A stretch of 64,000 bases of DNA from Pseudoalteromonas carrageenovora IAM 12662 (GTDB taxonomy: Bacteria; Pseudomonadota; Gammaproteobacteria; Enterobacterales; Alteromonadaceae): assembly GCF_900239935.1 (NCBI RefSeq), contig NZ_LT965928.1, forward strand, positions 2,621,520-2,685,519, written 5' to 3'. The notes beneath the pieces are model-generated. The model was not told where the DNA came from and did not search any database. It saw only the letters and a program-made list of their open reading frames with translations. Shown in pieces: positions 2,868-64,000 of this stretch. Position 1 is the stretch's first letter, and every line of letters starts with the position of its first letter. Position numbers and translations under genes: made by a program.

Positions 2868-5800
2868 TTAATTACCCACTTCATCATTTTCTTCGCGTTT
2901 AAAGATATAGGTTTGCTGTGTTTTAAAACCAAATCCTACTGTATCAGAATCATTTACTAACTGTATTGTACCGTCCACAACCGTTAAGCCTGGGCCTACT
3001 ACCTCTACAGGTTTCATAGGATTTTGCGCATCCTCACCTTTAATTCCAGGACCAATTAAATAAAATTGACTCTCCTGTGTTACTTCAATAGTTGGGTTGT
3101 CGTCGCACATGCCGTCGCCATTCCCATCAGCACATGACGGCCCCTCTCCAAAGTATAATTGAGGAGTATCAGGCACATCATAACTAGTTGTAAATTTCAA
3201 ATCGTCATACACTTTGGTCCCATAGTGTAAGTGGAAAGCATATAACGAACCTCCACCGCCACTTAACGAGCACTGATTTTCAGTTGACGTGTCAGAAGAT
3301 GGCGTAAAACTTGTAAAGTATGCTACCCCCCCTACCACTGTAGCTGCCGCTAATGATTTTTCACCCGAACCTAGCTCATACCGCCAGCCTTTAAATTTAG
3401 CTAAATCAACTTCTAAATCAACAAATTCATCAACATCATCTAATGCATTACCAAATGGGTCGCTATTCATTTGCATTAGATCCGTTGGCTTAATCGCTGT
3501 AGGCGAAGTAGTAAACGATTTAGTTACTGTATTTTCATCCCGGATCATAAATAACTGATCGTCTTCATTTGTACCGGTTGGTTTAGAGCGATTACCACTT
3601 CCAATCACAATTGCATCATAGGGTGTATCTAAACGAGTAATGACTGTTTCACCATTAATCGTTGTTTCACTTACTTTACTATAAAGCGTACGCGCTACTA
3701 GTGGTTGATAGAAAAAACGTCTATCCTGACTCGCTAATGAACTGCCTAACTCAGCAAGTTTAAAGTGTGTAAAATTACTTGTGCTACTACCAGGCATATC
3801 AATACGCCAAATATCTCCGCCAGTATCAGCTGCATATATTCTATCAATATAGCCATCGTAATCAGAATCTAATGTAGATACATTAGCTGCTATTGAGTGT
3901 TTTCCTTTAAAGCCATTCTCACTAGGCGTTAAAGCCCACACTTTTTTACCTGTTTCAGCTTCAACAATATAAATACCACGACCTACTGAATCTTCACTTC
4001 TTACAACAGCGTCTTTATTTGTATCATACCCTGCACCAAATACTAATAATGGTTTATCACCAAACGCTTTTATGTAAGCTATCTGTGGCTTTGACCACGT
4101 TTGTGCAAGCTCTGTAAAATCGCCTTTACCCCCTTCAATCGGATTATCCCATAATTTTTTTGGTTCATTAGGGTTTGTGATATCAAGCGCATAGTAGTTT
4201 CTCCCGCCACGTCGCATTCCTGCAAAGGCCCAAACATCGTCGCCATCGCTGGCATCAACAATACCATCGTTAACACCTTCATCATTTAAGCTTTTATCGC
4301 TAAAATAAACACTGATTGGGCCGTCCATACCATACACTTTACCAGTATCTTCGTTGCGTAAAGGCTGAATAATATCGTACAAGTCTGAAGGGATGAATGC
4401 CCAGCTTTCACTTACTTCGTTATTAGTATCGTCGTCTTTAAACATATGTAAAAAGCCGGCGTTAGTGCCAATAAGTATACGTATATCATCGTTACCGTAG
4501 TCTATGGCAACAGGTTTAGAGTGAAGAGGGTCGCCAAAAATATCGCTGCGTTGGTCTGTATTTGAACCATCGTTATCCTCGTCATCAACATCAATGCCCA
4601 TAGCCCATTCAATATCTGAACTGGATAAGCTAATCGGGTTATTAGTTACTAAGTCTAAAATATCACTCACTATATTAGTGGTAAAATCTACAATATCGCC
4701 TTGTTTATCAGTGTAGAGGTTGCGCCTGTCTTCTGCTGGGGTACCTGTTAATGTAGCTAAATGGTAATTCACTCCACCTTGCGCTACTAAGTTACCATCG
4801 GCAGATTGGCCATCAGGTAACCAAAATGTTTTAGCATCGGTGTCAATTAAACCGTCAGAATCAAGCGCTGTATTATCTGCTGAGTCGACTATTTCACTGC
4901 CTGATACTTTTAATTTTTTTAAATTACCGCCCCATCTTGTGTTAGTTTCTGGGTAGAACATGGCAAAGTAAATAGCATCGCGGCTACGTGTTTGGTCTAC
5001 GTTATTACTTGCTACTGAGGGAGATGAAAAGCTATCGTTTACTTCACGAATACGAGAAATTGCGCTATTTAGTGAGTTAGAGAGCTCATCGGGGGTACTT
5101 GCAGGTAAGTTTTCACCGCCACCTAAAGAGGCTGCACGCCTTAAAAGTTCCTGACCGCTTGCGCTCATACCCGAGCCAAAACCTATGGTATATAAGCGAC
5201 CTGTTTCGTGAATATCGGGAGTAGAAGGGTATAAATCAACTGTTACATCACTTGTACCATGAATAATTTTAGCCATTTGGTGAAGGTAGCTGCTGTAGTA
5301 ACTATCTGTATTCCAGTTTAGTCCTTCACCAAAGTATTTTTCATGCTCGGCACTAATTTGGCTATCACTGTCATTATCACCAGATGGGTCGCCATCAGTC
5401 ATATAAATGATATTGATTGAATTATCACAGCGTATAGCTTCAGCATCGCTGTCTTCAAAAGGGGATATGTAAGTATATTGGTAGTTATCTTTTACTACAT
5501 TTTCACACTCATATACCCATCCAGAACGTCGCCCTTTCCAAACCCAATCACATTCAACCTCTGTATACTGGCTACCGGTTCTTAATTCAGCGCTTGTATC
5601 GCGTTCAAGTGTGGTTGCTTCAAGACCATATTGAACTCCTTGTCCGGTAATATATAAATAGGCTTCCCATAAAGTCTCTGTAAGCGGGGTTCCGCCATCA
5701 GCTGGCAAAGCCGCTATGGAATTGCGTACTACTGAAGAGTCACTCCCAACACCGTTTACAATGTAGCCACCTGTAGTGCTCTTAAAACGCATTAAGCCAA

Positions 5801-54378: not shown

Positions 54379-55487
54379 GATGATTCCTCTAATTTAGATG
54401 TTGTTTTAATGGGAAGTAACAAACTAAAGCAGGCTCCCCCGTGTTCATTATTAGCCACGTCAACACGACCTTGATGCGCATTAGCCACCGAGCTTACAAC
54501 CGCAAGCCCTAAGCCTGTGCCTTGGCTTTTTGTAGTAAAAAATGGCTCGAATATTTTATCGCCTTGGCTTAAATCAACGCCTGGGCCATTATCACTAACA
54601 CTAATTCGTACCATATTTGGGTCGTGTGAATCTGTTTGCGCCGTTATTTTTACCGCTGCGCCATTACCAATAACTTGAATACTGTTATGCACTAAATTTT
54701 GAATCGCGCTCGCAAGCGCAGTTTTATTACCAACAATTTGTATGTCGGGCTCAGGTAGGCTTACATCTAGCTCACTGTTATTTAGGGCTACCATAGCGTC
54801 CGCGCCGGTTTTAACCTCTGTTAATAACTGCTGCATAGAAACTTGCTCAACAACCTGCTGATCACCACTTTTTGCAAATAGCAGCATGTCGTTAACTTGG
54901 GTTTCTAAGTCTTTTAATCGCGACATTAATTTAGTTTGAAAGTTATCACGAGAGGCTTCTGGTAAGCGTTTTGAGCCTAAATTAGCAGCGTATAACATAG
55001 CCGCAGAAAGTGGCGTACGGACCTGATGCGCCAATGAAGCAACCATTTTACCCAGCGCACTTAAACGCTGCATATGAGCAACCCTTTTTTGCAATCGGCG
55101 GGTTTCTGTTAAATCGGTCATTAATATAAGCTGACCAGGCTCTGGAGCGAGTGCGGTTATATCAAGCTTTATTAAACGCCCATCTTTAAGCGACACTTCG
55201 TGCCCATCATCTTGATGCGGACGAAAAGAGCGCTGGATCACATTAAACCACTTCTCACCCTCTAGTGGTTCACCAAGCATATCTATCGCTATTTGATTCG
55301 CTTTCGCTATCATACCTTTGCCATCTAGTACCACCACACCTGCGGGCATAGTGTCTACTAAATGCGAAAGCCAGCTTGCTTGCTTACGCAGATCGCTTAA
55401 CTCACCAATGTACTCCTCTTGAAGTAAACATGGGTTATACTGATTTGCAGAAATAAACTGTGGTTTTAACACGCTTGCAAGAGCCAT
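54375..55487 (-). CDS. flrB: FlrB (FleS), histidine kinase for FlrC
   Basis: A 370-residue soluble sensor kinase. A PAS-like domain (about 45-140: VDTMPAGVVVLDGKGMIAKA) precedes the H-box ASLAHQVRTPLSAAML. N, G1 and G2 boxes are complete (LVHNSIQVIG, VSDNGPGVDL, KSQGTGLGLAVVSSVA). No membrane span is seen. The start is set at the ATG at 55487 (MALASV); an in-frame TTG two codons earlier is less likely. It is divergent from tag. Confidence 0.95.
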   Translation of the reverse strand: MALASVLKPQFISANQYNPCLLQEEYIGELSDLRKQASWLSHLVDTMPAGVVVLDGKGMIAKANQIAIDMLGEPLEGEKWFNVIQRSFRPHQDDGHEVSLKDGRLIKLDITALAPEPGQLILMTDLTETRRLQKRVAHMQRLSALGKMVASLAHQVRTPLSAAMLYAANLGSKRLPEASRDNFQTKLMSRLKDLETQVNDMLLFAKSGDQQVVEQVSMQQLLTEVKTGADAMVALNNSELDVSLPEPDIQIVGNKTALASAIQNLVHNSIQVIGNGAAVKITAQTDSHDPNMVRISVSDNGPGVDLSQGDKIFEPFFTTKSQGTGLGLAVVSSVANAHQGRVDVANNEHGGACFSLLLPIKTTSKLEESS

Positions 55488-55619: not shown

Positions 55620-56213
55620 ATGAGTGAGCAAAAAAAGTGCCGTTGTCCGTGGCTCGACACCACTAAACCAGACTACGTTATTTACCACGATGAAGAATGG
55701 GGCGTGCCACTTTATGATGATACAAAACTATTTGAATTTATTACGCTAGAGTCGGCGCAAGCGGGTTTAAGTTGGTACACCATTTTAAAAAAGCGTGAAG
55801 GCTACAAAAAAGCATTTGCTAATTTTGATGTGCACAAAGTAGCTAAATATACAGCACAGGACATCGAGCGACTCATGCTTGATGAAGGTATTGTGCGTAA
55901 CCGCTTAAAAATTGCAGCAACTGTAAATAACGCTAAACGATTTATAGAAATTCAAAAAGAGTTTGGTAGTTTTAGTAATTACCAATGGCAGTTTGTAGAC
56001 AACAAGCCAATTATCAGCAACTTAAATAGCATAGATGACTACCCTGCAATAACAGAGGCCTCTACCGCGTTTGCAAAGGATTTGAAAAAACGTGGTTTTA
56101 AGTTTTTAGGGCCTACAACGGTGTACGCACATATGCAGGCCTGTGGCATGGTTAACGATCATAGTAATGATTGCTTTAGAAAAGAAGAAATTATTAAGGC
56201 TTTTGGTGAATAA
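55620..56213 (+). CDS. tag: DNA-3-methyladenine glycosylase I
   Basis: A 197-residue DNA repair enzyme that removes 3-methyladenine. The zinc site is formed by Cys in KKCRCPWLD, His in VIYHDEEWGVPL, and the C-terminal MQACGMVNDHSNDCF, all present. FEFITLESAQAGLSW carries the catalytic Glu. AAAAGGGATC precedes the ATG. It lies on the + strand inside the flagellar regulator set, between flrA and flrBC, and has no known role in motility. Confidence 0.96.
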   Translation: MSEQKKCRCPWLDTTKPDYVIYHDEEWGVPLYDDTKLFEFITLESAQAGLSWYTILKKREGYKKAFANFDVHKVAKYTAQDIERLMLDEGIVRNRLKIAATVNNAKRFIEIQKEFGSFSNYQWQFVDNKPIISNLNSIDDYPAITEASTAFAKDLKKRGFKFLGPTTVYAHMQACGMVNDHSNDCFRKEEIIKAFGE

Positions 56214-56303
56214 GTGACTTATAACCATAAAAGTGATCTGTTCACAAAGAGGGTAAGAGACGCTTCGCTTTAGAGAAGTAACACGTAAGTTAACTATGGC
56301 TCC

Positions 56304-56483
56304 TCATTTGCCCTCGTTTTTAAGATACGTGTTTAAGTAATTAAAAGCTGCGCTTTTCACGCGAGCAAGCTCAGCGTCTACCATCGTGGCTAGACTTACT
56401 TGTAGACGCGCTGCTTGCAGGCGTTCAAAAACATAGTTTCGAGGTGAGTGTTTAAATAACGAAAAGTCTTTCACCATTTGCAT
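56304..56483 (-). CDS. Small protein of 59 residues directly after flrA
   Basis: An ORF beginning four bases after the flrA stop: ATG at 56483 (MQMVKDFSLFKHSP) with a second ATG at 56477, ending NTYLKNEGK. The product is alpha-helical, basic and amphipathic in the middle (YVFERLQAARLQVSLATMVD), without a membrane segment. No clear Shine-Dalgarno is visible, so it would depend on coupling with flrA. I recognise no family. Reading as a chance ORF is possible, but codon use looks like that of its neighbours. Confidence 0.5.
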   Translation of the reverse strand: MQMVKDFSLFKHSPRNYVFERLQAARLQVSLATMVDAELARVKSAAFNYLNTYLKNEGK

Positions 56484-56487
56484 ACTG

Positions 56488-57924
56488 CTAATCTCGCGAC
56501 AAGTTATACTTTTTCATTTTTTCGACGAGCGTTGTACGCCTTACACCTAATATTTCCGCTGCGCGTGCCACAACATAATCAAAGCGTTCAAGTGCTTGGG
56601 TAATTAAGCTAATTTCAAGCTCTGCTAAATAGTCTTTAAGCTCAATACCGTCTTCAGGTAGTAATCCGCTGCCTTGTTGATTAAATTCAGCTTCGGGTTC
56701 AGAATCATAATCACTAAAACCAGTGCTAAAAATATCGTTAAAGGCATCTTTTTCTAAAAGCTCTTCTGGGTACTCTGGCTCGTAGGCATCGACTTCTATG
56801 TAACGATATTTATTTGGTAAATCAGGTACATCAACCACCTTTTCAGGAAACATAATAACCATACGCTCAACTAAATTAGCAAGCTCACGAATATTGCCTG
56901 GCCACGCATGTTCTTTTAAGCTCTCAACCGCGCGTTCTGTAAATTTAGCGGTGGTGCCACTTTGCTCATTAACACGGCGCATTAACTCTTTTAATAGCAG
57001 TGGAATGTCGTCAGCGCGCTCACTTAGCGAAGGGTTTTCAATAGGGAATACATTCAAGCGATAATATAAATCTTCTCTAAAACTCCCCTCTTCTATCATG
57101 TTTTCGAGGTTGCGGTGAGTAGCGGCAATAACCCGCACATCAGCCTGTATGGCTTTTGTGCCACCCACTCTCTCGTAGCTGCGTTCTTGCAACACCCTTA
57201 GTAACTTAACTTGCATTTGCAGCGGCATATCACCTATTTCATCTAAAAATAGTGTACCACCTTGAGCAAGTTCAAAACGTCCTTTACGCGCCGATATAGC
57301 CCCTGTAAACGCCCCTTTTTCGTGCCCAAATAACTCACTTTCAAGCAACTCCCCAGGTATTGCACCACAGTTAACCGGCACAAACGGCCCTGTATTACGC
57401 TTAGACAATAAGTGCACGTTGCGCGCAACAACCTCTTTACCTGTGCCCGACTCACCTAAAATAAGCACGTTTGCATCGGTTTTAGCCACTTGCTCAATTA
57501 AAAAGCGTACGTCTTTAACTGCATCAGTTTCACCTACTAAACCATCAAATGATTTATGAGGTTTATGGCCTTTATGGTCAGTTGGTAACATACGTTGATA
57601 CTGCTGGCAATCGTGCAGCAATTGCGTGGTTACTTCGTGATTAAAAGGCTCACAAATTAAGCCTACAACATTTGCAATACTTAGTAGTGGCTTAAGTGTT
57701 TCACCAATTAATAAAAAAGGGAGTATTGGGTAGCGTTTAATTAAGCTTTCGTGATCTAAGCTTTGCAATGCACCTAAAATGACTATGCATTCTTGCTGCT
57801 GATACTTACTGCATATTTGCTCAAAGCTAGATTCATCTAGCAATTGTACAGCCTCACCTATAAAGGTAAGTGATGCGTTTAATCCTATTGAGCGATTGTT
57901 ATTATTATCTAAAATCAAGATCAT
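56488..57924 (-). CDS. flrA: FlrA (FleQ), master flagellar activator
   Basis: A 478-residue sigma-54 enhancer-binding protein at the top of the polar flagellar hierarchy. The N-terminal receiver-like domain (1-120) lacks the usual phosphoacceptor pattern, as in FleQ. The AAA+ domain has [18 protein letters not shown] (Walker A), [16 protein letters not shown] and [19 protein letters not shown]. The C-terminal HTH is [20 protein letters not shown]. In related proteins the AAA+ domain also binds cyclic di-GMP. It is divergent from fliS, with a 361-bp upstream region. Confidence 0.96.
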
Positions 57925-57966
57925 AGTTAGCGAGCCGTACTTTCACTAATTTATTTAATTAGTTAA

Positions 57967-57994
57967 ATTGTAAGCCAGTTAAGCGTGGATGCAA
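57967..57994 (-). promoter_or_regulatory. Possible sigma-70 promoter of flrA
   Basis: On the - strand TTGCAT (57994-57989), 16-bp spacer, TACAAT (57972-57967), 43 bases before the flrA start. The -35 box is weak. Confidence 0.35.
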
Positions 57995-58167
57995 GCGATA
58001 GCGGCAGTTTTTTGACATAAACGCCAAAAAACAGACGGACTAGTAAAATCAATCATACTTAAGAATTAATCATTAAGTATCAATTTATAAAAACCTTATA
58101 TAAAAGCTAACTAAAAATTTTAAAGTACAAATTACCCAATATACAAAATATATAAGCTATTATTTAC

Positions 58168-58194
58168 TTAAGTTGAAAGTAACAATGCCGATAA
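58168..58194 (+). promoter_or_regulatory. Sigma-28 (FliA) promoter of fliS-fliT
   Basis: TTAAGTT (58168-58174), 12-bp spacer and a perfect GCCGATAA (58187-58194), about 90 bases before fliS. This is the standard FliA promoter pattern. Confidence 0.85.
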
Positions 58195-58285
58195 CTATAC
58201 AAATGTAAAACGCTTGGCATTAATATTGCTTTTATTTTGGTATAAGTTTTACATAATTTTAGTAGTTAAATTTTAGGATTTTCCC

Positions 58286-58687
58286 ATGGCACATGTCTCA
58301 CTGAAAAAATACAGTCAAGTTCGTGCAAGTAACATTGCAGAAATGGCGCCGTATGAACAAATAAACCTTATTTTTAGTAATATTATTGGTCGCTTAGCTG
58401 CTACTAAGGGTTTTATTGAACGCAAAGAAATAGAAAAAAAAGGCGAAAACCTCTCAGCATGCATTTTATTATTAGGTGCACTGCAAGATGCGCTTAACTT
58501 AGAAGTAGAACAAGATCCTAGTATTTCTGATAATTTATTGGCGCTATACGCCTACTGCCAGCGCAAATTAACGCAAGCGAATATAAATAATGATATTGAA
58601 GCAGTTGTTGAAGTTTCAAGCATCATTAAAGAAATAAAAGAAGGTTGGGATAGTATTCCAGCAGATCAACGCAGTCCTGCGGTATAA
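58286..58687 (+). CDS. fliS: FliS, flagellin export chaperone
   Basis: A 133-residue helical chaperone that binds the flagellin C-terminus. The family start KKYSQVRASNIAEMAPYEQI, the ESAPPHKLI-equivalent (APYEQINLIF), GRLAATKGFIERKEIEKKG and ALNLEVEQDPSISDNLLALY are recognisable. It is read on the + strand, opposite to fliD and the flagellins, with its own sigma-28 promoter. Confidence 0.92.
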   Translation: MAHVSLKKYSQVRASNIAEMAPYEQINLIFSNIIGRLAATKGFIERKEIEKKGENLSACILLLGALQDALNLEVEQDPSISDNLLALYAYCQRKLTQANINNDIEAVVEVSSIIKEIKEGWDSIPADQRSPAV

Positions 58688-58691
58688 GGCT

Positions 58692-58988
58692 ATGGGTCAA
58701 AGCCTTTCAGTTAAAGCAGAGCATATTCATGCGCTGCTTAATAATATTGAAGCATTAGTACAAAGCAATAAAGCAGATGAAGCCAAGCCAATTATGGATA
58801 CTTTAAATAGTGAACTTAAAAGCTGGTGCGAAAGTGATACACCACCAAACACTCAAGAATTAGAGACTATACAAGCTGTTATAAACGCTATAAGCAAGCA
58901 GGCTATAGCTGCAAAAAATGAATCATCTAAAGCTATAATTAAGCAAAAAAAATCGGGCAAAGCAATCTCAGCATATAAATCGGTTTAA
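58692..58988 (+). CDS. FliT-like flagellar protein (FlaI type)
   Basis: A 98-residue helical protein four bases after fliS. It matches FliT/FlaI-type chaperones only in length, helical character (EHIHALLNNIEALVQSNKAD, LETIQAVINAISKQAIAAKN), basic C-terminus and position. FliT binds FliD in enterics; FlaI holds this place in Vibrio. The function is inferred from context. Confidence 0.65.
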   Translation: MGQSLSVKAEHIHALLNNIEALVQSNKADEAKPIMDTLNSELKSWCESDTPPNTQELETIQAVINAISKQAIAAKNESSKAIIKQKKSGKAISAYKSV

Positions 58989-59013
58989 TTGCTCTCATGT
59001 AAATAGCAGGCAT

Positions 59014-59044
59014 AAAAAAACCGTTTTTTTTAAACGGTTTTTTT
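59014..59044. terminator. Bidirectional terminator between fliT-like and fliD genes
   Basis: A perfect 13-bp inverted repeat (AAAAAAACCGTTT / AAACGGTTTTTTT) with a 5-nt loop. Its A and T runs allow termination from both converging genes. Confidence 0.92.
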
Positions 59045-59060
59045 GTGATCACAACTAGTA

Positions 59061-60500
59061 TTAAGAGTTATTACTCACTACACCAGGCATATTTTCAAGC
59101 TGAGCTTGCACATAGCTACTAGTAGAGTTTAGGCTCGCTACCAATAAGTCCATGGCGTTGTATTGAGCGTATAATCTATCAGATAACGACTCCATCTTGC
59201 TAGCAAGGCTGAGGCGCTGATCATCTAAATCGTCTAATTGATTTGTTTTACTGTCTATACGGTTTTGGATAATACCATCTGAGTCTGTATAAAAGCTCAT
59301 TAGCTCATCAAACGATTGGGCAAAACCACCTTCGTCTTCATCTGTGCCAATAAAAAACTGCTGCACTAAATCTACATTTGAGTCTATTTGCTCATTTAGT
59401 GTTTCTGTATTAAGTGTTAAAACACCGTAGCGGTCCGTTTCGACACCTAATTGAGATAGGGACAATGAATTACCATCACCTAAATCAACTGATTCAGTTA
59501 TTTCACTACGTAGTTTTGACATAACACCACGAAGGAGTGAATCACCCGCCATTACACCTGCGCCAGCTTCACTAGATGCGCCTAAATTGTTACTAAGTTC
59601 TAGCAACTCATTATAGCTTTCGATAAAGCTATTTAAACCTGCTTGTATATTATTATTATTTTCAGTGACTGAAATATCACTTATATCGTCATCAGCATCA
59701 TGCAATTTTTTAGCGGTAATATCCACGCCATCAATTACATTACTAAACTCATTCGTATTGCTTGATACCGTTAATGTGCCATCAATCGTTATTTGGGCAT
59801 TTTGTGCAGCGTTTACTTCAGTCAAGTTGGTAGTATGGTTTAGCGGGTCTGCGTCAGATACATCGTAAGCTAACCGTGAAAGCCCGCCAGTGTCAGTATT
59901 ATTACCATCGTCATCTTGTACGGTAATAGTAATTGCATTGTCTTCACCAGTTTCTTTACTAGTAAGTACTAAATGCTGGCCTGAGTCACTGGTTACTATA
60001 GTCGCCACCACCGAGTCGTTACTGTCATTGCCTGTAAAAGGGCCGTTATTAATTTGGTCGCGTAAATCTTCTAAAGTATTAGTTGCCGATAAAACAGTAG
60101 AAAAACTGTTTTCACCAGAGCCTATTGTAATTATACCGGCGCCAATAGCTTCATCGACTGCAAATGCAGGAGATGATAATTTATGCGCTTGTGCTAATGC
60201 ATCTACCTTTACATTGTAGCTACCTGGTTGAGCGTCTTGATCAGCACTTATCGATATAAAATCATCATTACCAGATGCTGTACGCTTTTGATAATTATCG
60301 CTGTCGCCTAAAGCTTCCATTGATGTTTGTACTTTTTCAAGAGCAGATTTTAATGCTCCAACGGCCGATATATCAGTAGTTAAATTACTTTCGGTAGTAT
60401 TTAAACGAGCTTCAGCAGGGGCCTGCTCAGCATTAACTAATGCATCCACAATGTCTGATACCGCTAAGCCAGAGCCCAAACCATTAAACGAAATAGACAT
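59061..60500 (-). CDS. fliD: FliD, flagellar filament cap protein
   Basis: A 479-residue cap protein (HAP2). N-terminal FliD_N motifs are ISFNGLGSGLAVSDIVDALV and NAEQAPAEARLNTTES; the C-terminal domain has LRGVMSKLRSEITESV, SQLGVETDRYGVLTLNTETL and a coiled ending MESLSDRLYAQYNAMDLLVA. The middle is acidic and Asp-rich, like many marine proteins. It lies 59 bases after flaG. Confidence 0.95.
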   Translation of the reverse strand: MSISFNGLGSGLAVSDIVDALVNAEQAPAEARLNTTESNLTTDISAVGALKSALEKVQTSMEALGDSDNYQKRTASGNDDFISISADQDAQPGSYNVKVDALAQAHKLSSPAFAVDEAIGAGIITIGSGENSFSTVLSATNTLEDLRDQINNGPFTGNDSNDSVVATIVTSDSGQHLVLTSKETGEDNAITITVQDDDGNNTDTGGLSRLAYDVSDADPLNHTTNLTEVNAAQNAQITIDGTLTVSSNTNEFSNVIDGVDITAKKLHDADDDISDISVTENNNNIQAGLNSFIESYNELLELSNNLGASSEAGAGVMAGDSLLRGVMSKLRSEITESVDLGDGNSLSLSQLGVETDRYGVLTLNTETLNEQIDSNVDLVQQFFIGTDEDEGGFAQSFDELMSFYTDSDGIIQNRIDSKTNQLDDLDDQRLSLASKMESLSDRLYAQYNAMDLLVASLNSTSSYVQAQLENMPGVVSNNS

Positions 60501-60559
60501 ACTTCACCTCTTTAAATACCTAAAAATAAGCTAACTAAATATACGAGTAACAATAGCCG

Positions 60560-60994
60560 CTAAACAGTTTGATCTATCAAAATACCGGCTGACTCAGAAA
60601 GCTTTGACACTAAACTCAACACTTCTTCCGAGGGGTACTGCTTAATTACATCACCACTGGTTTTATCTAGTATTTTAATTACATCACGCCCTGAATCTTC
60701 ATCAACTTGAAACTGCAGGCTACGGTTCATTTCACCCATAAAGTCTTGCAATTGCTGCGCCACTTTTTCAAGCTGTTCACGCTCAAGCTGTTGGTTTTGC
60801 GAACTATTAGTCTTAGTTCCTTGTTGTGCGTATTGATTGTTTAACTGATTTTGTGGGCCTTGTTCATCCGTTTTATTTACGTCATCAACAGCTCGCTGAG
60901 TCAATACTGAGCCAGCCTGCCCTATTTGTTTATCTTCACCAGCTAACGGTGTTGATGCTATCGTAACTTCTGCGTTTGAAGTAATGGTATTCAT
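60560..60994 (-). CDS. flaG: FlaG family protein
   Basis: A 144-residue protein. The N-terminal half is polar and Gln/Asn-rich. The C-terminal FlaG domain reads MNRSLQFQVDEDSGRDVIKI, LDKTSGDVIKQYPSEEVLSL. FlaG influences filament length in Pseudomonas and Vibrio. It has a strong AGGAGGCGTT ribosome site and lies between fliC and fliD. Confidence 0.92.
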   Translation of the reverse strand: MNTITSNAEVTIASTPLAGEDKQIGQAGSVLTQRAVDDVNKTDEQGPQNQLNNQYAQQGTKTNSSQNQQLEREQLEKVAQQLQDFMGEMNRSLQFQVDEDSGRDVIKILDKTSGDVIKQYPSEEVLSLVSKLSESAGILIDQTV

Positions 60995-61066
60995 AACGCC
61001 TCCTAACTTTGCCGAACTTGTATAGTTATTAGACTAACAATAGCTTAATTTATACCCTTAAACCAC

Positions 61067-61096
61067 AAAAGGAGGTAGCTAAAGCCACCTCCTTGT
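61067..61096 (-). terminator. Terminator after the complete flagellin gene
   Basis: AAGGAGGT (61069-61076) pairs with ACCTCCTT (61087-61094) across a 10-nt loop with T-rich sequence on both sides. It ends the flagellin transcript and isolates flaG. Confidence 0.82.
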
Positions 61097-61161
61097 TTTT
61101 TAAAACTAATACTGACTTTTTGTACTAGCTAGCTACCCATTAAGCTATAAGGTTTTACTTA

Positions 61162-62565
61162 TTAACCTAATAAGCTAAGTGCTGTTTGTGGTAACTGATT
61201 CGCTTGCGATAAAATTGACGTACCTGCTTGTTGCAAGATTTGGTTTTTAGTCATCTCTGCTGTTTCAGTTGCAAAGTCTGTATCTTGAATACGGCTACGA
61301 GAAGCAGATACATTTTCAGAGATATTAGATAAGTTACTTATCGTGAAATCAAAACGATTTTGAATAGCACCTAGATCTGCTCTCTGACTATCGATTTCTG
61401 CAATGGCAGAGTCAATTATAGATAATGCTCTTTGAGAACCAGCCTGAGAAGATATATCAACTGAATCAACATACTGCTCTGTAGATTGTGCCGTGATGGC
61501 TCCCGTCGTTTCTGTGCCTCCACTTACAGTGAATGATTTCTCAGATGAAAACTCTAAGCTTGAGGTCAGACTGGCTGCAGCACTATCCGTACCAACTGCT
61601 GCAATAGTCCCACCTCTTTCGGTAAGCGAAACTGTATTAGTAGCAACACCGTCTGCATTTTTTTGGATTGCTATACCATCCACACCACTAGCGTTTAATT
61701 GTACAACCGTGCCACTTACTTCTGCATCATAACCCAAATCTTTTAATTTTGCGGCTAAACCATCATTATCAAGGCCATCTAAAGCTATTTCTTTATCTCC
61801 AACAGTAAGTACCCCTGTAACTGAGCCACCCAAAGCAATATCCACTTTAGCAACAGCTGCGGCGTTAACACCTGATGCTGATGCATTAATTACACTAGCT
61901 GCCTCTGTTACCGTTGAGTCTGCTTCAATCAATACACTAGAAGAATCTATACCTGACGCAAAAACTAAAGTTTCATCAACTGTGCTTTTATTAAATTCAG
62001 CATCTGCACCTGTAACACCAAATACGCTACCCGCAGCAGTGTCACTAGCAAAAGAACCTCCAATTTCTTCCGCTGCTACACTTTTTAATGAAACATTAAT
62101 TACCTCGTTGGCATTAGCACCAATTTGGAATGACTTAGTGCCGAAACCACCATCAAGAAGTTGTTGGCCACCAAATGAAGTAGTATCGGCTATGCGTGTT
62201 AATTCAGTTTGTAAAGCTGATACTTCTTTTTGCAATGAGTCACGGTCTTCTTTAGAATTTGAGCCATTAGCAGATTGTAGCGCTAGTTCACGCATACGTT
62301 GCAAAATATTGGTTGACTCACTCATAGCACCCTCAGCAGTTTGTGCCATTGAAATACCATCATTAGCATTACGCTGTGCTACTGCTAATCCGTTTACTTG
62401 TGAAGTTAAACGGTTTGAGATTTGCAGGCCTGCCGCATCATCTTTTGCGCTGTTAATACGCATACCCGATGACAAGCGTTCCATTGACGTTGCAAGGTCT
62501 GAACCTGATTGAGACAAGTTACGTTGAGCATTTAGTGAAGATACATTTGTATTTACTGAAATCAT
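61162..62565 (-). CDS. fliC: Flagellin, first complete copy
   Basis: A 467-residue flagellin. The N-terminal D0/D1 domain is conserved ([60 protein letters not shown]) as is the C-terminal one ([40 protein letters not shown], ending PQTALSLLG). The central domain, about residues 158-367, has Ala/Ser/Val-rich beta-type sequence. That central DNA (61466-62093) is identical to the same region of the next flagellin gene. GCCGTTAA-type sigma-28 promoter upstream. The name fliC is used in the general sense; Vibrio-type labels (flaA and others) cannot be assigned. Confidence 0.97.
61466..62093 (-). repeat. 628-bp perfect direct repeat, copy A (flagellin central region)
   Basis: Base-for-base identical to 63182-63809 (offset 1716), read in both copies line by line. 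It covers the central variable domain of the flagellin. Both ends are abrupt, with many differences immediately outside. Confidence 0.95.
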
Positions 62566-62655
62566 AATAAAACTCCTGATTACTTTCGTAATGTTTCTGT
62601 TTAGATTTAACCAAGAGCTGTCACAATTGTATGTTCAAGCTCTGTACTGATTAAG

Positions 62656-62682
62656 TTAACGGCAGGAGAAAATTTATCTTTA
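62656..62682 (-). promoter_or_regulatory. Sigma-28 (FliA) promoter of the downstream flagellin gene
   Basis: On the - strand TAAAGAT (62682-62676), 12-bp spacer, GCCGTTAA (62663-62656; consensus GCCGATAA), about 90 bases before the start codon. Confidence 0.75.
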
Positions 62683-62816
62683 GCGTTATTTTGATTTATT
62701 CTTAAAGTAATTTATAAAATAAACCTAAACACCTAATTTTAAAAAGAATAATAAAACCACCTCCCCCTAAAAAAGTTTTTCATTCACGTACAGCGTACTA
62801 TTTTTCGTCAAAAACT

Positions 62817-62846
62817 AAAAAGCACACCTAAAAAAGCGTGCTTTTT
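62817..62846 (-). terminator. Terminator after the partial flagellin gene
   Basis: AAAAAGCAC (62817-62825) pairs with GTGCTTTTT (62838-62846) across a 12-nt loop, and a T-rich stretch follows on the - strand. It lies 28 bases after the stop codon. Confidence 0.8.
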
Positions 62847-62874
62847 ATTATAAGCTTTATTAGCTTGTTTGTTA

Positions 62875-64000
62875 CTATCCACCCAACAAGCTAATTGCTG
62901 CCTGTGGAATTTGGTTTGCTTGAGATAGGATTGACGTACCAGCTTGCTGTAATATTTGATTTTTTGTCATCTCTGCTGTTTCAGTTGCAAAGTCAGTATC
63001 TTGAATACGACTTCTAGAGGCCGATACATTTTCTTCAATATTAGCAAGATTGCTGATTGTGAAACTAAAACGGTTCTGTACAGCACCAAGATCAGATCTT
63101 TGTCCATCAATATCAGCAATTGCAGAATCGATTAATGAAAGCGCTCTTTGTGAACCTGCTTGAGTAGATACATCTATTGAGTCAACATACTGCTCTGTAG
63201 ATTGTGCCGTGATGGCTCCCGTCGTTTCTGTGCCTCCACTTACAGTGAATGATTTCTCAGATGAAAACTCTAAGCTTGAGGTCAGACTGGCTGCAGCACT
63301 ATCCGTACCAACTGCTGCAATAGTCCCACCTCTTTCGGTAAGCGAAACTGTATTAGTAGCAACACCGTCTGCATTTTTTTGGATTGCTATACCATCCACA
63401 CCACTAGCGTTTAATTGTACAACCGTGCCACTTACTTCTGCATCATAACCCAAATCTTTTAATTTTGCGGCTAAACCATCATTATCAAGGCCATCTAAAG
63501 CTATTTCTTTATCTCCAACAGTAAGTACCCCTGTAACTGAGCCACCCAAAGCAATATCCACTTTAGCAACAGCTGCGGCGTTAACACCTGATGCTGATGC
63601 ATTAATTACACTAGCTGCCTCTGTTACCGTTGAGTCTGCTTCAATCAATACACTAGAAGAATCTATACCTGACGCAAAAACTAAAGTTTCATCAACTGTG
63701 CTTTTATTAAATTCAGCATCTGCACCTGTAACACCAAATACGCTACCCGCAGCAGTGTCACTAGCAAAAGAACCTCCAATTTCTTCCGCTGCTACACTTT
63801 TTAATGAAAGGTTTATGATTTCATTAGCATTTGCACCTACTTGAAATGACTTTGTACCATAACTTCCATCAAGTAATTGCTGACCACCAAATGAGGTTGT
63901 ATCTGCAATACGTGTTAGCTCAACTTGAAGGGCTGACACTTCTTTTTGCAGCGCTTCGCGGTCTTCTGTTGAGTTTGAACCATTTGCCGATTGCAGAGCA
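62875..64000 (-). CDS. Flagellin, second copy (5' end outside the window)
   Basis: The frame is open to the right edge; about 375 residues are visible and the D0 start is missing. The visible part starts at [18 protein letters not shown]. It goes on through [20 protein letters not shown], the shared central domain, and the C-terminal domain ([40 protein letters not shown], ending [10 protein letters not shown]). Outside the 628-bp shared segment the DNA differs clearly from the neighbouring flagellin. An internal Met at 63939 is not the real start. Confidence 0.95.
63182..63809 (-). repeat. 628-bp perfect direct repeat, copy B (flagellin central region)
   Basis: The partner of 61466-62093, same orientation and offset 1716 bp. 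Recombination between the copies would remove one flagellin unit of that size. Confidence 0.95.

Follow-up and report, generated by a model that had tools for sequence, protein, structure and literature searches.

The stretch of DNA analysed here (the window) comprises 64,000 nucleotides of Pseudoalteromonas carrageenovora IAM 12662 (NZ_LT965928.1, positions 2,621,520-2,685,519), and at its end lies a flagellar gene cluster on the minus strand that contains two tandem flagellin genes. The names flaA and flaB were assigned to these genes in this analysis. Because flaA extends 284 bp past the end of the window, the full gene was taken from the same assembly (locus L004, positions 3395-4804). Both products belong to the bacterial flagellins (PF00669/PF00700), with both domains scoring far above the cut-off: Flagellin_N and Flagellin_C span residues 4-140 and 381-466 in FlaB, and 5-141 and 383-467 in FlaA. 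An Rfam search of positions 56000-64000 gave nothing at the gathering score. The features of the locus are as follows.

61162..62565, minus strand: flaB-type flagellin gene, the downstream copy, 467 amino acids; open reading frame with a predicted sigma28-type promoter
61162..61465, minus strand: 3' flank of flaB (D1/D0), diverged from flaA with a synonymous divergence (dS) of 1.59; contains 61250-61278
61466..62093, minus strand: homogenised tract in flaB, codons about 158-367, predicted outer domain; exact 628-bp repeat
62094..62565, minus strand: 5' flank of flaB (D0/D1), diverged from flaA with a dS of 1.63
62656..62682, minus strand: predicted sigma28-type promoter of flaB, TAAA-N15-GCCGTTAA, 117 bases 5' of the ATG
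62875..64000, minus strand: 3' part of the flaA-type flagellin gene, an open reading frame; the gene encodes 469 amino acids
63182..63809, minus strand: homogenised tract in flaA, identical to flaB 61466-62093; exact 628-bp repeat
L004 4890-4904, beyond the window: predicted sigma54-type site of flaA, TGGCACAGTAAATGC

The original prediction had claimed that the two genes are identical over 628 bp in their centre and diverged just outside, and both statements hold. The two 628-bp copies lie 1716 bp apart, and only one other exact match of at least 20 bp was found between position 55000 and the end of the window, namely a 29-bp match at 61250-61278 with the same offset. In the codon alignment of the complete genes 173 of the 1407 columns differ, including six gap columns, and the longest identical runs outside the tract are 32 and 29 bp. 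When the differences were placed at random 20000 times, the longest clean run averaged 43 and never exceeded 107, against the 628 observed. Directly at the 5' boundary of the tract, identity in a 60-nucleotide block is 72%. Over the flanks as a whole it is 78-79% at the DNA level, with dS values of 1.63 on the N side and 1.59 on the C side by the NG86 method (1.15 and 1.28 by YN00), near synonymous saturation. None of the 120 fourfold-degenerate codons in the tract is changed, whereas 40 of 72 and 15 of 35 comparable codons differ in the two flanks, so that the identity resides at the level of DNA and does not result from conservation of the protein. A foreign base composition of the tract was also considered; its G+C content (42.6%) is not telling against that of the N flanks (41.0-42.8%) and C flanks (37.3-38.6%).

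According to an AlphaFold2 model of FlaB, the tract corresponds to the outer (D2/D3-like) domain and little more, because a strand at residues 154-159 and a C-terminal helix from residue 374 bracket codons 158-367, with the outer domain between them. The mean predicted local distance difference test (pLDDT) score of the model is 72.5, and block means are 80-92 throughout residues 181-340. Scores fall below 50 at residues 1-14, 26-40, 132-141, 176-178 and 429-467, and the N-side edge of the domain is less certain because the model is weak there. The best solved structure for the model is the flagellar filament of Pseudomonas aeruginosa (PDB 8sug, rank 1); the crystal structure of the D2/D3 domains from the same species (8erm) also matches it, at rank 46.

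The protein encoded by the tract, referred to below as the cassette, was searched for in 108 genomes of the genus, the present one included. It was matched in three of them: the present genome (two copies), G021 (51 and 47% identity) and G045 (44%, partial). In a large protein collection 16 proteins match it, among 7998 scored candidates. A silent or third copy acting as donor, as in antigenic variation, was rejected, since the present genome has just the two matches. Flagellins of the long type, at an E-value of 1e-60 or better, were present in 35 genomes, 32 of which had at least two genes, and 31 genomes were analysed as flaA/flaB pairs. Those omitted were G029, G054 and G070, with one match each, and G033, whose second gene was missed by the search pattern. 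Where there were more than two copies (G031 and G072), only the flaB-type copy adjoining flaA was taken; a further long flagellin elsewhere on the contig of G068 was left out; and flaB of G052 was kept as read although its C end lies in another reading frame, which accounts for the low score of its C flank.

The 31 pairs fall into two classes. In seven genomes, the present one included (G000, G009, G016, G020, G030, G067 and G080), dS between the two centres is 0.00-0.08, and in the remaining 24 it is at least 1.04 or, in one case, saturated; no intermediate values were found. Identity profiles in steps of 60 nucleotides, made for all seven homogenised pairs (G080 among them), revealed that high identity spans the whole centre in each, that in each the two copies still differ at the 5' end, and that the extent into the flanks varies. 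Protein identity between the two centres in the other 24 genomes is 20-79%, and in 23 of the 31 pairs no other part of the genes is as divergent as the centre. Strong conservation of the centre, for which we found nothing in favour, has thus a negligible chance of being right: it is refuted by the unchanged fourfold codons, by the presence of the cassette in just three of 108 genomes and by the 20-79% identity of centres elsewhere, and there are species with almost the same flanks whose centres differ.

Several of these loci have features of their own. The two flagellin genes are about 1.3 kb apart in G080 (L155 2167-3480) and about 2.4 kb apart in G016 (L050 2799-5158), as against roughly 0.2-0.5 kb in most relatives, and the G016 pair is homogenised nonetheless. 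The tandem array of G031 consists of one flaA and three flaB-type genes (L163 725-7124); the N flanks of its flaB-type genes are 99.6-99.8% identical and the centres of the two complete flaB copies about 78%, the reverse of the present case. The flaB-type gene of G052 with its C-terminal end in another frame (L039 1225-2538) reflects either a sequencing error or a broken gene.

Among 21 pairs of short flagellins in seven chosen genomes, no centre dS was below 0.50, a control that cannot separate selection from homology. A wider survey covered the best 80 loci, 26 of which had at least two flagellins, and 28 pairs were compared, two of them cut by contig ends. The centre was more than 90% identical and more alike than the N flank in two pairs, L089 (Pseudoalteromonas sp. 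FUC4) and L148 (a Rhodoferax metagenome-assembled genome); one L120 pair and the L153 pair are similarly alike in centre and N flank. The Rhodoferax genes are divergently oriented, with a centre identity of 91% and flanks of 78-79%, and they may represent an independent case in the Betaproteobacteria.

Upstream of the two genes we searched for promoters using the sigma28 and sigma54 consensus sequences. The predicted flaB promoter, TAAA-N15-GCCGTTAA, has one mismatch to TAAA-N15-GCCGATAA, and none of 40 mononucleotide shuffles equalled it; such shuffle controls cover 22 pairs. With at most one mismatch, a sigma54-type site is predicted for flaA in 28 of the 31 genomes and a sigma28-type site for flaB likewise in 28 of 31, the present genome being included in both counts. 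There may thus be one gene per sigma factor, as far as matches to a consensus can indicate. By analogy with Shewanella oneidensis, FlaA might lie near the hook and FlaB form the bulk of the filament.

Two sister strains, known from proteins that were paired through contigs of equal size (P0006/P0004 and P0007/P0005), offer a closer view of the exchange between the genes. A single substitution in each protein separates them, G319D in FlaA and G318D in FlaB, and the two fall at the same site of the alignment. Compared with the first of them, FlaB of the present genome differs only at residue 309, and FlaA has the same T/A change. Lineage-specific changes common to both paralogues, as expected from concerted evolution, are thus seen at the protein level. 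In the present genome and in both sister strains FlaA and FlaB are identical over the 172 residues from DETLVF onward. In the block of 39 residues before DETLVF, FlaA and FlaB differ at 10 positions in the sister strains and at one in the present genome, where flaA carries the flaB version of the block. Since this version is confined to flaB in the sister strains and occurs in both genes here, the 5' part of the longer tract was, on this comparison, copied from flaB to flaA, and this is the most recent copying in the present genome that can be traced. A corresponding 5' edge exists in G080, judged at informative sites, namely those at which its close relative G083 separates flaA from flaB. At nucleotides 421-480 of both G080 genes 12 such sites match the flaB side of G083 and one the flaA side, and at nucleotides 361-420 the numbers are four and zero; by this comparison the 5' flank of the tract in G080 derives from flaB.

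Trees of the flanks and centres, built quickly and with long-branch warnings, behave differently. On the flank tree the A/B label requires 13 changes against a shuffled mean of 20.8 or 20.7, and at most two of 500 shuffles were as low; on the centre tree it requires 22 against 21.0 or 20.9, and 374-384 of 500 shuffles were as low. Clustering by label is a feature of the flank tree alone. The two genes of one genome form a cherry in 13 of the 31 genomes on the centre tree and in six on the flank tree, and the nearest neighbour is the gene's own partner for 30 of 62 genes in the centre and 14 of 62 in the flanks. Paralogues of one genome are each other's closest relatives more often in the centre than in the flanks, the pattern expected of concerted evolution over a bounded tract.

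The entry of new outer domains into the locus was traced in 22 pairs of close species with flaA or flaB flanks at least 94% alike. Neither centre differs in one pair (G102/G103), both differ in 16, and the flaB centre alone differs in five, which amount to four distinct cases, G102 and G103 being alike: G045/G048, G056/G102 (or G103), G014/G069 and G052/G101. No swap confined to flaA was found among the 22. In the five rows the protein flanks of FlaA are 100% identical and its centre 94.5-100%, whereas the FlaB centre is 45-69%. The clearest cases are G045/G048 and G056/G102, in which flaB is 90-100% identical in its DNA flanks and altered from residue about 165-176 to 369-393. In G014/G069 the flaB change starts at residue 112; in G052/G101 the C end of G052 flaB lies in another frame, and identity is also low in one patch of flaA. 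Four swaps in flaB against none in flaA are suggestive, although not significant. The cassette of the present genome also has relatives: the protein P0008, with a flaB-type end, carries it at 81%, and the flaA-type P0009 carries a related one at 70%. As far as these sequences go, the cassette has moved more than once.

We consider it highly probable that the pattern at this locus results from recurrent interlocus gene conversion confined to the outer, surface domain of an old tandem flagellin pair. These polar flagellins have separate predicted promoters, and their D0/D1 cores have diverged; intracellular homologous recombination, which we infer to be conversion of the RecA type, would copy an outer-domain segment between the genes. 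Later exchange would be confined to the matched segment, the only long homology left, because the flanks differ by about 22% in their DNA. New outer domains would come in by cassette replacement, in some relatives into flaB alone, and might subsequently spread to flaA, an order of the two steps that is itself conjectural. The presumed benefit is a filament with one uniform surface across its flaA and flaB segments. A recent conversion of the surface-exposed domain had been proposed in the original prediction, and is supported by the changes shared in the sister strains, the distribution of dS and the trees. Its other proposal, that both genes received a new domain, may hold as an earlier step, given the replacement seen in relatives, which in four close pairs hit flaB alone. 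It also suggested that the antigenicity or structure of the two filament proteins is kept alike, which is plausible.

Some observations weigh against conversion, or at least against a simple version of it. Over nucleotides 481-1260 of G080, about 100 informative sites of the shared sequence agree with flaA of G083 and about 72 with its flaB, and the centre is only 62-65% identical to the G083 orthologues. The direction of copying in G080 is consequently readable at the 5' edge only, and the lack of support for a flaB origin of its centre slightly lowers our confidence both in the conversion reading and in a relay through flaB (see below). The flaB partner of P0009, P0022, assigned to it through contigs of equal size, has a different cassette (45% identity between the pair). 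No direction could be read for the present genome against the outgroups G021 and G069, nor for G009 against G079. Judging from these alignments, the direction of copying is not uniform between lineages.

The alternative that survives best is a neutral conversion hot spot, in which matched copies stay matched through their long homology without any benefit at the surface. It is compatible with the mechanism proposed above, and we lean only somewhat against it as a full explanation. Identical runs outside the tract do not exceed 32 bp, and recombination would be confined to the tract regardless of its value; taken alone, however, a hot spot accounts neither for a first copying that recurs in separate lineages nor for a 5' end that is never included in any of the seven pairs. 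Improbable, in our judgement, though conceivable for the present genome, is the import of one foreign cassette into both genes separately, by two transfers from one donor and with no copying between the genes. Replacement between species does occur, with flaA almost unchanged in the four cases named above, and the 16 close pairs in which both centres differ indicate that both genes can be hit. Yet just one gene was hit in each of those four cases, and both the residue common to FlaA and FlaB in a sister strain and the flaB-like 5' flank in flaA of G080 would need exchange within the cell or coincidence. Still less probable is an assembly error that put the sequence of one copy in place of the other. 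Short reads cannot span 628 bp, the contigs of G029 and G054 (L056 and L057) break off within a flagellin gene after about 184 and 205 residues, and both copies in G030 run off contig ends. The present genome, however, is in three contigs, and the same FlaA and FlaB proteins occur on three contigs, the longest of which has 3633318 bases, more than the 3620649 of the contig analysed here, and belongs to another strain or to a re-assembly of this one. Moreover, G016, G020 and G080, in assemblies of at most three contigs, share the homogenised centre, and FlaA and FlaB of the sister strains agree with each other over the same 172 residues. Draft contigs that end within a flagellin gene are what one would expect if identical centres break short-read assemblies, and matched pairs may be more frequent than they seem.

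A rather doubtful extension of the conversion reading is a relay in which the sigma28-type gene flaB is the port of entry for foreign cassettes and conversion then copies the new surface to flaA. Cassettes would be swapped into flaB through recombination in the conserved flanks, and flaB would supply most of the filament; the whole filament would then change its coat as a unit, with cores and promoters remaining specialised. The asymmetry, a swap in flaB followed by a copy to flaA, is testable. Many bacteria assemble one filament from several flagellins, whose surfaces evolve rapidly, presumably in response to phages, grazers or hosts. Domain-confined exchange at this locus illustrates how several genes could share one surface and yet differ in core and control, and within the genus matched and mismatched pairs occur naturally in different species, so that one can ask whether motility or phage resistance suffers when the surface is mixed.

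Pseudomonas aeruginosa, whose filament (8sug) gives the best structural match to the FlaB model, has a single flagellin gene, which poses no matching problem. Among titles and the openings of abstracts, with subscription literature mostly outside this coverage, we found no conversion confined to the outer domain in Pseudoalteromonas, and priority is accordingly uncertain for the sharpness with which the tract is limited to the outer domain, for the all-or-none distribution of dS and for the swaps in flaB alone. Sheaths or screw-like surfaces can form where outer domains pack through dimer contacts, and the loss of one such contact lowers motility in E. coli O157:H7 (PMC8931119); these contacts make a structural reason for surface matching reasonable. 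In Shewanella oneidensis, flaB but not flaA depends on sigma28 (PMC3120886), and the filament has FlaA near the hook and FlaB as its bulk (PMC11839096). It resembles the present locus in its two-flagellin pair and in the sigma28 control of flaB, which is predicted here, and differs in that its flagellins have only a small variable region besides D0 and D1, leaving no outer domain to match. The fla genes of Alteromonadales are among the recurrently converting genes, in eight species (PMC6053082). Like the present genes, these are flagellin paralogues from this order; the nearly full-length high identity of that type was looked for here and not found, the flanks being diverged and the surface domain alone homogenised. 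Concerted evolution of flaA and flaB is known from Campylobacter (Meinersmann and Hiett 2000, Harrington 1997 and Alm 1993, cited in PMC5126078 and PMC8535712), in which flaA is under sigma28 and flaB under sigma54 (PMC5126078), and the flagellins have conserved ends and a variable interior prone to recombination (PMC8535712). Campylobacter shares with the present locus a pair of flagellin genes that exchange sequence, for which promoters of these two types are predicted here. In Pseudoalteromonas, by comparison, the exchange can be pinned to the outer domain, is set against near-saturated flanks and many species, and accompanies cassette replacement in the sigma28-type gene. On this reading the process is the ordinary one of flagellin concerted evolution, in a domain-restricted variant of which the present locus is an unusually clear case.
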